Shown here: in pieces, positions 1 to 47,576 of the stretch | How the letters are laid out: each line of letters opens with the position of its first letter | How positions within the stretch are numbered: position 1 is the first letter of the stretch | Assembly: GCA_030746435.1 (NCBI GenBank) | Contig: JASLMV010000005.1 | Coordinates: 1 to 64,000 of the forward strand | Reading direction: 5' to 3' | From: Gammaproteobacteria bacterium | GTDB taxonomy: Bacteria > Pseudomonadota > Gammaproteobacteria > Steroidobacterales > GCA-2729495 | DNA length: 64,000 nucleotides | Program-made: the position numbers and the translations under genes | The notes under the pieces: model-generated | Database searches by the model: none | What the model was told of the DNA's origin: nothing | Seen by the model: the letters and a program-made list of their open reading frames with translations, nothing else

Positions 1-46
1 CAGGAAACTACGCAACTGATCACTGCGCGACGGGTGCCGGAGCTTT
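1..46. repeat. Duplicated fragment of the rpoD 3' end
   Basis: These 46 bases match positions 175-220, inside the rpoD 3' end, with 2 mismatches. The copy touches the window edge and may extend further left. At base 46 it passes directly into the inner part of a long family A element (CTTTAAATGAC), so the two copies of the rpoD tail flank that element as direct repeats. The copy has no start of its own and is probably not functional. Confidence 0.85.
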
Positions 47-132
47 AAATGACACGGCATTCCGTGCGGCAGAAACATGCGCGGAATGCCAGTAGTGGAA
101 TTTACATCGGCAAACCGCTGGTTTGCCGATAG
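43..132 (+). repeat. Long family A palindromic element, left end replaced
   Basis: The element begins CTTTAAATGAC and carries two hairpins. The first pairs GGCATTCC with GGAATGCC. The second pairs ATCGGCAAACC with GGTTTGCCGAT around a 3-nt loop. The usual left end (GTAGGAGCGG) is missing and replaced by the rpoD-tail copy, and the usual right end (GCCGCGA) is degenerate. It lies just downstream of the rpoD stop codon on the rpoD-transcribed strand, where it may also act as a 3' structure. Confidence 0.7.
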
Positions 133-2175: not shown

Positions 2176-3945
2176 CTAACTCGCCTTGGAACGTGGACCC
2201 GCGATCTGCGCCTGAAGTTCCCGGAACTCGGCCTTTTCGGCGTCCGTCAGTCCGTGGTTGGCCTTGTCTGTCAGTTCGGCAAAGCGGCGTTCCAGGTCGT
2301 CGTGCAGGATGCTGTCCAACGTGTCCTGGAGCTGCGCCGCCCAGTCTGACTCTTCGTCGAGCGGCAGTTCCTGGGTCAGGAGCTTTGTTAAGTGGCTGCC
2401 CCCGTCGGGATGCTCGCTTAACTGTTCGGCCAGCCGGGCCGGCTTGATATCCGGGTTGTCCTCGGCCGTGGCCAGCAAATCCCTTAGCAGTTGCAGGCCA
2501 GGCTGATCCAGTTCATCGAAGCCTTCCGGTACCCGGATCACGCTCGCCGTTGCCGGCTGATGAAGAGCCAGCGTTATAGCCTGGCGTACCGGGCCGGGAC
2601 GGCCATAGCTTACCCGCTGCGACGCGCGTATCCGCGTTTGTGGCCGTTCGGCCGGGGCAGCCCCCGGATCGCTCAGCAACCGTGCCAGCCGTTCTGCGCT
2701 TAAGCCTACTTCCGCCGCCAGCCGTTCCAGCAACAACTCTCGATACACCCCTTCGGGTATACGGTTCACGAGCGGCCGGGCCAGTTCCGCAAGGCGGGCC
2801 TGCCCGTCGATGCTGGCGAGGTCGGTTTCGGCCTTCAGGTGTTCAAGCAGGTAATCGGACAAAGGCTGACTGTCCTCGACCAGCCTTAAAAATGCTTCCG
2901 GCCCGATTTCGTTGACCATCGAGTCCGGGTCCTGCCCGTCGGCCAGGAACAGAAAGCGCACCTGCCTGCCTTCGCGCAGTTCGGGTAACGTTACCTGCAG
3001 GGCGCGCCATGCCGCCTCGCTGCCCGCGCGGTCACCGTCGAAACAAAATACGATTTCATTACTGGCGCGGAACAACCGTTGCAGGTGGTCCGGTGTGGTC
3101 GCGGTGCCGAGGGTTGCCACCGCCGTCGTGATGCCATGGCGGGCGAGGGCAACCACGTCCATATAACCTTCGACCACGAGCAGCCTGTCCAGATTGCGAT
3201 TGGCGCGGCGTGCTTCGAACAGGCCGTACAGTTCGCGGCCCTTGTGGAATACCGGTGTTTCGGGTGAGTTCAGGTACTTCGGCTCGGTGTTGTCCATTAC
3301 GCGTCCGCCGAAACCGACGGTCCGGCCGCGGCTGTCGCGAATTGGGAACATGATTCGATCACGGAAGCGATCGTACACGCGACCTTCTTCGTTACGCAGC
3401 ACCAGGCCGGTCTTTAGCAGCCGGTCGCGGCCCGCCTCATCGCTGCCGAAGCGCTTCAGCAGGAAATCCCAGCCCGCCGGCGCAAAGCCGATTCGGAAAT
3501 GGTTCGTGGTATTGCCGTCGAGTCCACGGGATTTCAGGTATTCAATTGCCGCCGGGTTGTCACGCAGCTGCTCGCAATACAGGTTGGCTGCTTTCTCGAG
3601 CAGATCGAAAAGCGGCGTCGTCGGTGTGCCGGGGGCTTTACCTTCTTCGCGCGGCACGTCCACACCGTTCAGGGCGGCAAGTTCTTCGATGGCTTCAACG
3701 AATTCCAGCCGGTCGTGCTCCATCAGGAAACCGACGACGGTGCCGTGCGCGCCGCAACCGAAGCAGTGATAGAAACCTTTTTCCGGGCTGACCGTAAACG
3801 ATGCGGTTTTTTCCCCGTGGAAGGGGCAACAGGCTTTGTATTCCCGGCCGGCCTTTTTAATCTGAATCCGGCTGCTGATGACCTCGACGATATCCGAGCG
3901 ATCGATGAGGTCGTTAATAAAATCCTGGGGAATTCGGCCTGGCAT
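2176..3945 (-). CDS. dnaG: DNA primase
   Basis: Synthesises RNA primers for Okazaki fragments and works with the replicative helicase at the fork. An N-terminal CHC2 zinc finger is visible (CCPFHG, then YHCFGCG), followed by the catalytic core with TOPRIM motifs (VVEGYMD and FCFDGDRAG) and a C-terminal helicase-binding region. I start it at the ATG at 3945 (MPGRIPQDF, 589 aa). The frame stays open 19 codons further upstream, but that extension is not like the family. It is the third gene of the macromolecular-synthesis operon. Confidence 0.97.
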   Translation of the reverse strand: MPGRIPQDFINDLIDRSDIVEVISSRIQIKKAGREYKACCPFHGEKTASFTVSPEKGFYHCFGCGAHGTVVGFLMEHDRLEFVEAIEELAALNGVDVPREEGKAPGTPTTPLFDLLEKAANLYCEQLRDNPAAIEYLKSRGLDGNTTNHFRIGFAPAGWDFLLKRFGSDEAGRDRLLKTGLVLRNEEGRVYDRFRDRIMFPIRDSRGRTVGFGGRVMDNTEPKYLNSPETPVFHKGRELYGLFEARRANRNLDRLLVVEGYMDVVALARHGITTAVATLGTATTPDHLQRLFRASNEIVFCFDGDRAGSEAAWRALQVTLPELREGRQVRFLFLADGQDPDSMVNEIGPEAFLRLVEDSQPLSDYLLEHLKAETDLASIDGQARLAELARPLVNRIPEGVYRELLLERLAAEVGLSAERLARLLSDPGAAPAERPQTRIRASQRVSYGRPGPVRQAITLALHQPATASVIRVPEGFDELDQPGLQLLRDLLATAEDNPDIKPARLAEQLSEHPDGGSHLTKLLTQELPLDEESDWAAQLQDTLDSILHDDLERRFAELTDKANHGLTDAEKAEFRELQAQIAGPRSKAS

Positions 3946-4558: not shown

Positions 4559-4669
4559 GTAGGAGCGGCTTTAAATGATGCCATATTTCCGTGCGGCAAA
4601 AAGTACGCACGGAAATATCTTAGGGAGAATATATTTCGAGGGATCCACAGGATGCCGAGATAGCCGCGA
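4559..4669 (+). repeat. Long family A element between rpsU and yqeY
   Basis: Complete copy starting GTAGGAGCGGCTTTA and ending TAGCCGCGA. The outer stem is GCGGCT/AGCCGC. Hairpin 1 pairs ATATTTCCGTGCG with CGCACGGAAATAT. Hairpin 2 lies near 4635-4662 (TTTCGAGGGATCC against GGATGCCGAGA, imperfect). It ends 1 base from the rpsU stop codon, so it lies inside the transcribed operon and may form or influence the rpsU-yqeY intercistronic structure. Confidence 0.9.
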
Positions 4670-7000: not shown

Positions 7001-7111
7001 GTAGGAGCGGCTTTAAATGAGACCATATTTCCTCGCGGCGAAGAAAACGCGTGGAAATATCTGAGGCCGAATATATTTCGAGGAATCCACAGGATTCCGA
7101 GATAGCCGCGA
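7001..7111 (+). repeat. Long family A element after folK
   Basis: Complete copy from GTAGGAGCGG to GATAGCCGCGA. Hairpin 1 pairs ATATTTCC with GGAAATAT, and hairpin 2 pairs GGAATCC with GGATTCC. It lies between the convergent folK and pteridine-reductase genes, where a bidirectional 3' structure is plausible. Confidence 0.9.
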
Positions 7112-22724: not shown

Positions 22725-22750
22725 AAACGGGCCCTGCGGGGCCCGTTTTT
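22725..22750 (+). terminator. Intrinsic terminator of the DUF1838 gene
   Basis: AACGGGCCC pairs with GGGCCCGTT around a short loop and runs into TTTTT. It lies 20 bp after the stop codon. Confidence 0.9.
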
Positions 22751-22845
22751 AAGTGACGCCAGGATTCGAGCGCTCGTGCAGCCAGCGCTCGAATGCTAGA
22801 TGGCGGAACTTATGTCGGTAAAGCACAGCTTTACCGACCTCTATC
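22750..22845 (+). repeat. Divergent long family A element without REP ends
   Basis: Starts TTAAGTGACGCC. Hairpin 1 pairs ATTCGAGCGC (22764-22773) with GCGCTCGAAT (22785-22794). Hairpin 2 pairs GTCGGTAAAGC (22814-22824) with GCTTTACCGAC (22828-22838). Neither arm resembles the other copies in sequence, but order, spacing and the GTGACGCC and GGCGGAA joints match. Confidence 0.65.
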
Positions 22846-22849
22846 TCCA

Positions 22850-22920
22850 GTAGGAGCGGCTTTAGCGGGTTGCATCACTGGTTTCACCTTCAGCACCTGT
22901 AGGAGCGGCTTTAGCCGCGA
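22850..22920 (+). repeat. Two short family A (REP-like) units
   Basis: GTAGGAGCGGCTTTA at 22850-22864 continues as GCGGG (degenerate). A second, complete copy at 22899-22920 continues as GCCGCGA. GCGGCT and AGCCGC form the hairpin with a TT loop. REP units of this core are common in Pseudomonas and related gammaproteobacteria. Confidence 0.85.
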
Positions 22921-23013: not shown

Positions 23014-23123
23014 TCGCCGCTATCTCCGAATCCGTTGGATTCTGCGAAATAAATTTCGACTTTTAGCCTTCCAGGCGTTTTTCTGCCGCCTGGAAGCCTG
23101 TCGTCATTTAAAGCGGCTCCTAC
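23014..23123 (-). repeat. Long family A element, inverted
   Basis: Read on the minus strand it begins GTAGGAGCCGCTTTAAATGA and ends TAGCGGCGA. Hairpin 1 pairs CAGGCTTCCAGGCG with CGCCTGGAAGGCT. Hairpin 2 pairs CAGAATCC with GGATTCGG-type sequence, imperfectly. It faces the short copies at 22850-22920. The rest of 22921-23013 holds nothing recognisable. Confidence 0.85.
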
Positions 23124-43348: not shown

Positions 43349-43459
43349 GTAGGAGCAGCTTTAAATGACGCCATATTTCCACGTGGTAGAAACCACGCGT
43401 GGAAATATTTGAGGCGGAATCTATTTCGAGGAATCCATAGGATTCCGAGATAGCCGCGA
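43349..43459 (+). repeat. Long family A element
   Basis: GTAGGAGCAGCTTTAAATGA to TAGCCGCGA. Hairpin 1 pairs ATATTTCCACG with CGTGGAAATAT. Hairpin 2 pairs CGAGGAATCC with GGATTCCGAG (imperfect by one bulge). It closely resembles the copy at 7001-7111. Confidence 0.9.
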
Positions 43460-43490: not shown

Positions 43491-43512
43491 GTAGGAGCGG
43501 CTTCAGCCGCGA
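43491..43512 (+). repeat. Short family A unit
   Basis: GTAGGAGCGGCTTCA followed by GCCGCGA; a perfect GCGGCT/AGCCGC stem. Confidence 0.85.
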
Positions 43513-43599
43513 ACCGAATTTGCGTGTATTCGGACACGCAGATTTAATAGTCGCGCAGCGACACGAGGCCATCTCTGAAGAATTCCAACACAGGTCGTT

Positions 43600-43622
43600 T
43601 CGCGGCTAAAGCCGACTCCTAC
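43600..43622 (-). repeat. Short family A unit, inverted
   Basis: Reverse complement reads GTAGGAGTCGGCTTTA then GCCGCGA. With 43491-43512 it forms a face-to-face pair like a BIME. Confidence 0.85.
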
Positions 43623-47323: not shown

Positions 47324-47434
47324 TGTAGGGGCGGCTTTAAATGACGACAGGCTTCCGGGCGGCAGAAAAACGCCTGGAAGGCTAAAAGTTGGAATCTATT
47401 TCGGAGAATCTGAGGGATTCGTAGATAGCCGCGA
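47324..47434 (+). repeat. Long family A element
   Basis: GTAGGGGCGGCTTTAAATGA to TAGCCGCGA. Hairpin 1 pairs AGGCTTCCGGGCG with CGCCTGGAAGGCT. Hairpin 2 pairs GAGAATC-type with GATTCG-type sequence. Most similar to the inverted copy at 23014-23123. Confidence 0.88.
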
Positions 47435-47469: not shown

Positions 47470-47576
47470 AGAAGTCGCCCAATGCAGTGCATTGGCGACA
47501 TAAATTCTGAGAAGATCTTTCATGACTTGCTGCGCGAGTCCTGAAAGCTGCTCGTCATTTAAAGCAGACTCCTGCA
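47470..47576 (-). repeat. Divergent long family A element, inverted
   Basis: On the minus strand it starts CAGGAGTCTGCTTTAAATGA. Hairpin 1: 47517-47527 with 47537-47547 (one mismatch). Hairpin 2: 47474-47485 with 47489-47499 (one bulge). Arms differ from all other copies. The right end GCCGCGA is lost. The remainder of 47310-47649 contains only this, the copy above and a terminator. Confidence 0.65.

Follow-up and report, generated by a model that had tools for sequence, protein, structure and literature searches.

What keeps the two hairpins of a short repeat intact while the letters of their arms change? This question is raised by eight copies of such a repeat in a 64,000-nt stretch of gammaproteobacterial DNA (hereafter, the window), in which the arms differ from copy to copy and yet remain complementary. 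On balance, we think the repeat is probably a small non-autonomous mobile element (~95 nt) whose recognition depends on how a single strand folds and not on its letters, and which has been partly captured in this genome by a RAYT/REP system.

All eight copies listed in a preliminary description of the window were found where it had placed them, each with two hairpins in which every arm has its own complement (Table 1). The copy listed at 22750 begins at 22748. The 3' end that the copies were said to share, TAGCCGCGA or its variant TAGCGGCGA, closes five of the eight (4559, 7001, 23014, 43349, and 47324) but is missing from those at 43, 22750, and 47470. Two of the eight copies (23014–23123 and 47470–47576) lie on the minus strand. 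We also noted two other repeats in this DNA. Positions 1–43 lie immediately 5' of the first copy and match 175–217, within the 3' end of the neighbouring minus-strand rpoD, almost identically and in the same direction; this may be a genuine duplication or an assembly effect, since the window begins at a contig end. At 43522–43562 and at three other loci (L064, L090, and L116), elements and REPs have members of another palindromic family (GTCGC..GCGAC, TATTAAA, GCGTGT..ACACGC) between or next to them.

Table 1. Copies of the two-hairpin element and associated features in the 64,000-nt window, with bit scores against covariance model R1
Feature	Position	Strand	Parts and remarks	R1 score (bits) or other basis
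Element without REP flanks	44–130	+	Core 44–109; hairpin 2 to 130	63.1; fold
REP-nested element	4559–4669	+	REP 5' half GTAGGAGCGGC 4559–4569; core 4570–4638; hairpin 2; REP 3' half TAGCCGCGA	77.1
REP-nested element	7001–7111	+	REP 5' half 7001–7011; core 7012–7080; hairpin 2; TAGCCGCGA	73.2
Intrinsic terminator GGGCCCTGCGGGGCCCGTTTTT	22729–22750	+	T tract continues into element; G003 has the same terminator, element absent	
Post-terminator element	22748–22838	+	Core 22748–22817; hairpin 2 22814–22838, triloop ACA	79.8
Simple GTAG REP GTAGGAGCGGCTTTAGCCGCGA, no insert	22899–22920	+		Sequence, pattern count
REP-nested element	23014–23123	-	Core 23045–23112; outer stem GCCGC/GCGGC, a swap of the usual GCGGC/GCCGC	82.3
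REP-nested element	43349–43459	+	REP 5' half 43349–43359, ending GCAGC (one outer-stem mismatch); core 43360–43428; hairpin 2; TAGCCGCGA	78.7
Simple GTAG REP, no insert	43491–43512	+		Sequence, pattern count
Simple GTAG REP GTAGGAGTCGGCTTTAGCCGCGA, no insert, opposite orientation	43600–43622	-		Pattern count
REP-nested element	about 47325–47434 (also given from 47324)	+	Core 47336–47403; hairpin 2; TAGCCGCGA	78.1
Element with degenerate REP 5' half TGCAGGAGTCTGC only	47472–47574	-	Core 47496–47563	54.7

Read 5' to 3', the element consists of TAART, GA, CNNC, hairpin 1, a bulge, GNNG, GA, AYTTA, and hairpin 2. The core consensus is TTTAART-GAC-NNC, hairpin 1, the bulge, and GNN-GGA-AYTTA, after which come NTCG and hairpin 2. 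Hairpin 1 caps a longer stem made of TAART/AYTTA, a tandem G.A/G.A mismatch, and CNNC/GNNG, with the bulge on the 3' side. Core and hairpin 2 together span ~90–95 nt, or ~110 nt with REP halves. Across 77 copies, the tandem mismatch beside the inner stem is nearly invariant, with G in 75/77 and A in 77/77 on one side and G in 69/77 and A in 77/77 on the other. The loop of hairpin 2 has 3 nt in 56/77 copies compared to 105/385 shuffles, and GCGNAGC caps hairpin 1 in 20/77 copies, the shorter CGNAG doing so in 10 more. Rfam gave no match at gathering score in the window; over ten element loci, only tRNA reached that score, with five other weak matches below it.

The hairpins are real, and the covariation within them is strong. 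In a first alignment of 24 copies (23 from the genome itself and one, L033, from G036), made with MAFFT and no structure input, 89.2% of cells in paired columns could pair vs 70.4% after shuffling. The covariation score was 0.496 vs 0.173, a value reached by none of 500 shuffles, and sliding the partner by 1–3 columns lowered it to 0.024–0.153. A larger alignment (A5) of 77 copies, 42 from this genome and 35 from relatives, was fitted to the covariance model; here, all 22 modelled pairs had double-sided changes, 91.9% of cells paired vs 66.7% in shuffles, and covariation was 0.653 vs 0.197. Pairing therefore stands well above shuffled controls in both alignments. Nor are the copies merely sequence-identical duplicates, the other outcome that would have undermined the proposed compensatory change, as median pairwise identity among the 77 aligned copies is only 57%.

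Collecting copies genome-wide for a covariance model had been proposed as the check on compensatory change in the arms, and we carried it out with relatives' copies included and with a null that takes phylogeny into account. Substitutions were simulated on a FastTree tree of 76 rows (one gappy row was dropped) to give 60 simulated alignments. Against this null, 12 column pairs were significant at E<0.05, all 12 of them modelled pairs, and the other 10 modelled pairs fell short of significance. The unfitted, structure-free MAFFT alignment gave six significant pairs, all six in the same two helices. Compensatory change thus holds up under a phylogeny-aware test, and the significant covariation is confined to the structure.

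The kinds of mismatch that are tolerated point to the strand that folds. Among the 77 copies, G.U outnumbered A.C by 85 to 36, an excess also present to a lesser degree in shuffled columns (173 vs 140), and purine-purine mismatches outnumbered pyrimidine-pyrimidine ones by 86 to 13. A smaller unfitted set leaned the same way (G.U 20 vs A.C 13; purine-purine 35 vs pyrimidine-pyrimidine 9). The preliminary description had allowed for either RNA or a DNA structure such as a cruciform. Of these, folding of just one strand, whether as RNA or as single-stranded DNA, is favoured; the two biases, along with the near-invariance of G.A/G.A on one strand, speak against a symmetric DNA cruciform. GNA triloops are very stable in DNA. 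The GNA-type and triloop caps therefore lean toward single-stranded DNA on general thermodynamic grounds, although this falls short of proof.

The same mismatches bear on a selection-free explanation, in which arm pairing would be maintained by intramolecular correction, i.e., template switching between arms. Such copying could account for subfamilies that differ in whole arm segments yet stay paired. However, a strand-neutral process would give neither the G.U excess over A.C nor the purine-mismatch bias, and it should erase the G.A/G.A mismatches, which are instead kept. We regard this explanation as very improbable.

To place the copies in context, we used a set of 77 (42 own and 35 relatives', one relative copy differing from the A5 set). 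REPs were counted with a scripted pattern wider than the GTAGGAGTC form, and 5' flanks were classed with a pattern tolerant of degenerate REP heads. The flanks of this genome's copies comprised 23 REP and 19 free; those of relatives' copies comprised 1 REP, 5 tRNA T-loop, and 29 free. A GTAG/GTRG head beside the palindrome, by which a REP would be recognised, was accordingly present at 23/42 own copies and missing from 19/42 own and 34/35 relatives' copies. Both REP halves flank the element, as GGAGCGGC-TTTAAATGAC...GATA-GCCGCGA, in 10/42 own copies and in L091 of G036; in the remaining REP copies, only the 5' half is present, with an inverted REP after several of them. Where outer stems form, their arms are mostly complementary, and once both arms were swapped together (window 23014). 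The exceptions are one mismatch at 43349 and non-matching arms at L063:1501.

A RAYT gene, which the preliminary description had suggested looking for, is present at C33:3845–4285 (NF047646, 122.3 bits against a cut-off of 80). Its sole PDB sequence match is 4er8, TnpArep, and it is flanked by inverted GTGG-type REPs at 3748 (+) and 4315 (-), as expected of a REP/RAYT unit. A second Y1 protein, on C17, scored 73.3 bits, under the cut-off of 80. These findings invite the reading that the 110-nt unit as a whole belongs with the GTAG REPs/BIMEs as an unusually long form: its core would be a structured REP loop, and the RAYT alone would make and move the unit. The REP 5' half at over half of this genome's copies, the RAYT between inverted REPs, and the mostly complementary outer stem with its one joint swap would all fit. 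Yet the copies lacking a GTAG REP on their 5' flank, nearly all of the relatives' among them, do not; nor do four element-bearing genomes (G001, G007, G008, and G016) in which Y1_Tnp had no match, or the absence of GTAG REPs from 2.14 Mb of G003 and 57 kb of G002. We therefore hold the long-REP reading to be improbable.

As for other movers, a Y1 transposase was rejected as the general one, with Y1_Tnp in 5/9 element-bearing vs 20/31 element-free genomes of the family. A reverse transcriptase was likewise rejected (PF00078 in 2/9 vs 8/31, with none in the genome itself). The RAYT is a candidate mover for the REP-joined copies only.

With covariance model R1, the 38-contig, 2.43-Mb genome yielded 42 matches at E≤1, the weakest being a member of an array on C8 (E 0.17). 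In the family, 9/40 genomes matched at E≤0.1, the genome itself included (G000, G001, G002, G004, G007, G008, G016, G036, and G039). With a wider model, R2, 10/196 genomes of the order matched at E≤0.01, the tenth being a single match in G156, from another family; of 369 genomes sampled from the class, only the genome itself matched. The order and class counts are lower bounds because these searches used stricter filters, which recovered only 26 and 13 own copies, respectively. Exact-pattern scans gave 12 genomic stretches and 3 viral ones, which were judged by eye to be chance because none had the two-hairpin order. Three viral contigs and a Muribaculaceae genome record (L055, L058, L059, and L060) carry an identical stretch, a chance pattern match as far as the element is concerned. 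Copies adjacent to one another, head to tail, occur at L093 (G002:C51), L075 (C8), L120 (C32), and L117 (C11), repeating every 92 bases in G002.

Many REP-free copies lie at gene ends. Of the 48 REP-free copies, 45 could be tested for a co-oriented ORF of at least 80 codons whose stop codon lay so that the copy started at -12 to +10, and 22/45 had one, although some of these may be chance frames (e.g., window 22748 was counted, but the terminator there lies beyond the end of its gene). At nine shifted offsets, the same count was 0–6 of 42–45. At parB and several other genes, the element itself supplies the stop codon. A sense ORF ended at the 5' side of 24/48 free copies vs an antisense ORF at the 3' side of 9/48, over a wider range; the 24 REP copies had 11 sense and 4 antisense ORF ends. 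Among 60 loci scanned, four copies directly follow the 3' end of a tRNA (for Lys and Thr in G000; for Thr and Glu in G002), one copy, on C19, having tRNA-Thr on one side and tRNA-Tyr on the other, all in one strand.

Such placement supports our main rival explanation, a functional RNA at mRNA and tRNA 3' ends. The plus strand would be transcribed, fold just downstream of a stop codon or tRNA, and control ribosome release, 3' decay, or processing, with spread being secondary. Besides the ORF ends and tRNAs, a fold specific to one strand is what such an RNA would have, and the sense orientation to genes is compatible with an RNA role as well. An effect on ribosomes is plausible for the stop-codon copies because ribosomes stall at E. 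coli REPs that lie no more than 15 nt from a stop codon, according to PMC12306157. However, six copies follow intrinsic terminators as judged by eye (window 22748, L084, L089, L092, L095, and L120), where transcription should be rare, and in G008, G036, and G039 the T-loop of a tRNA 3' fragment holds an antisense copy in five cases. Both placements weigh against an RNA role as the general explanation. The rival is further weakened by there being just four same-orientation shared loci among the fetched copies and no copy at all in a sister species, G003. Overall, we consider it unlikely, though a serious contender.

Several side observations concern these sites. The tRNA 3'-half fragments that carry the element in their T-loop (L096, L097, L103, L104, and L111) may be attachment-site remnants. 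Before the copy at L117, positions 535–561 form a tRNA-like 3' end (GGGTTCGAGTCC..ACCA) in which ARAGORN called no tRNA, with a tRNA-Leu upstream at 83–169. At L099 of G036, an apparent duplication (1371–1568) spans a gene 3' end and the element.

The sister species offers a control for mobility. G003 belongs to the same genus, is 99% complete at 2.8 Mb (of which 2.14 Mb was taken), and has matching flanks that are mostly about 65–80% identical. R1 gave no match at E≤0.1 across the whole genome, nor did R2 at E≤5 over the 1.82 Mb searched. Nine orthologous sites were read by eye (parB, L093, L113, L123, L124, L127, window 22748, L121/L131, and L084/L092), and none held an intact element. Eight of the nine were empty, as expected in a close relative if the element is mobile, and we infer that most of these absences reflect insertion, which is simpler than loss. 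Loss also occurs: G003 keeps a likely truncated remnant at the ninth site, L084/L092.

Four loci have a copy in two species. Between these copies, 10–15 pairs were unchanged, 1–6 were doubly changed and still paired, 1–2 were changed on one side, and 1–4 were broken, so pairing at shared loci is partly kept. A single insertion shared by both species and repeated insertion are not fully separable here, and at the tRNA-Thr locus good alignment is confined to the tRNA flank. Shared copies with partly kept pairing could also be explained by host selection.

Taken as a mobile element recognised by shape, the repeat would behave as follows. The fold of a single strand would be the recognition feature, hence a shape that is kept while the letters change. 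Spread would proceed via folded single-stranded DNA, such as might form during replication, and an enzyme acting on folded single strands would insert the element in or beside hairpins, with insertions presumably tolerated at gene ends. In our genome, the element probably became joined to a GTAG REP and may by now multiply together with the RAYT/REP system resident there. Transcripts may include gene-adjacent copies, which would then fold at mRNA 3' ends, with a putative effect on ribosomes or decay. A more specific version is possible but tentative: a sequence-flexible two-hairpin strand with a near-invariant tandem G.A core, which host machinery, with no dedicated linked transposase, would insert into the loops of hairpins and the 3' ends of genes, and which would parasitise other palindromes such as REPs and tRNA arms.

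If the mobile reading is right, 77 aligned repeats that keep their shape while diverging in letters, together with empty sites in a sister species, provide a test bed for the recognition of a genome parasite through its shape. Some copies are nested in another mobile palindrome, the REP, and some in tRNA T-arms. Because it often starts at stop codons and sometimes provides them, the role of REP-like repeats at gene ends becomes testable within one lineage.

Among known systems, REPs/BIMEs with their RAYTs (REPtrons, TnpA_REP) are alike in being repeated, extragenic, palindromic, and near gene ends, and our genome adds GTAG-type heads and a RAYT between inverted REPs. The element differs in its two hairpins, its conserved tandem G.A, the near absence of GTAG REPs from relatives' copies, and the element-bearing genomes with no Y1_Tnp match. 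It is also longer than the 20–40 bp given for GTAG REPs in PMC3733652. That paper describes GTAG elements nested inside other palindromes, a likeness in that one repeat lies within another's palindrome, but here it is the structured element that lies inside the GTAG palindrome or tRNA T-arm. The enterobacterial RU and bcr1 repeats are similarly short, repeated, intergenic, and non-coding; the element had no Rfam match at gathering score.

In IS200/IS605 and derived palindrome-associated elements, the Y1 transposase recognises single-strand hairpins, which would account for a one-strand fold. By contrast, our element encodes no transposase and shows no correlation with Y1 across the family, contrary to what would be expected of a non-autonomous derivative of that group. 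Group IIC introns and integron attC sites also sit after terminators or stop codons and depend on structure over sequence, much like the element. Unlike them, it has no intron or attC-type core motif that we noticed on the basis of generally known motifs, and its flanks include core genes such as parB. Readings as a group II intron, attC, k-turn, or hammerhead were dropped on the same basis. REPs, RAYTs, and nested palindromes are already known, as PMC2817692 and PMC3733652 describe, and in open full text we recognised no account of the two-hairpin element. We would place it among the small mobile structured repeats, a known kind, from which it stands out by an unusual G.A core and a habit of nesting.
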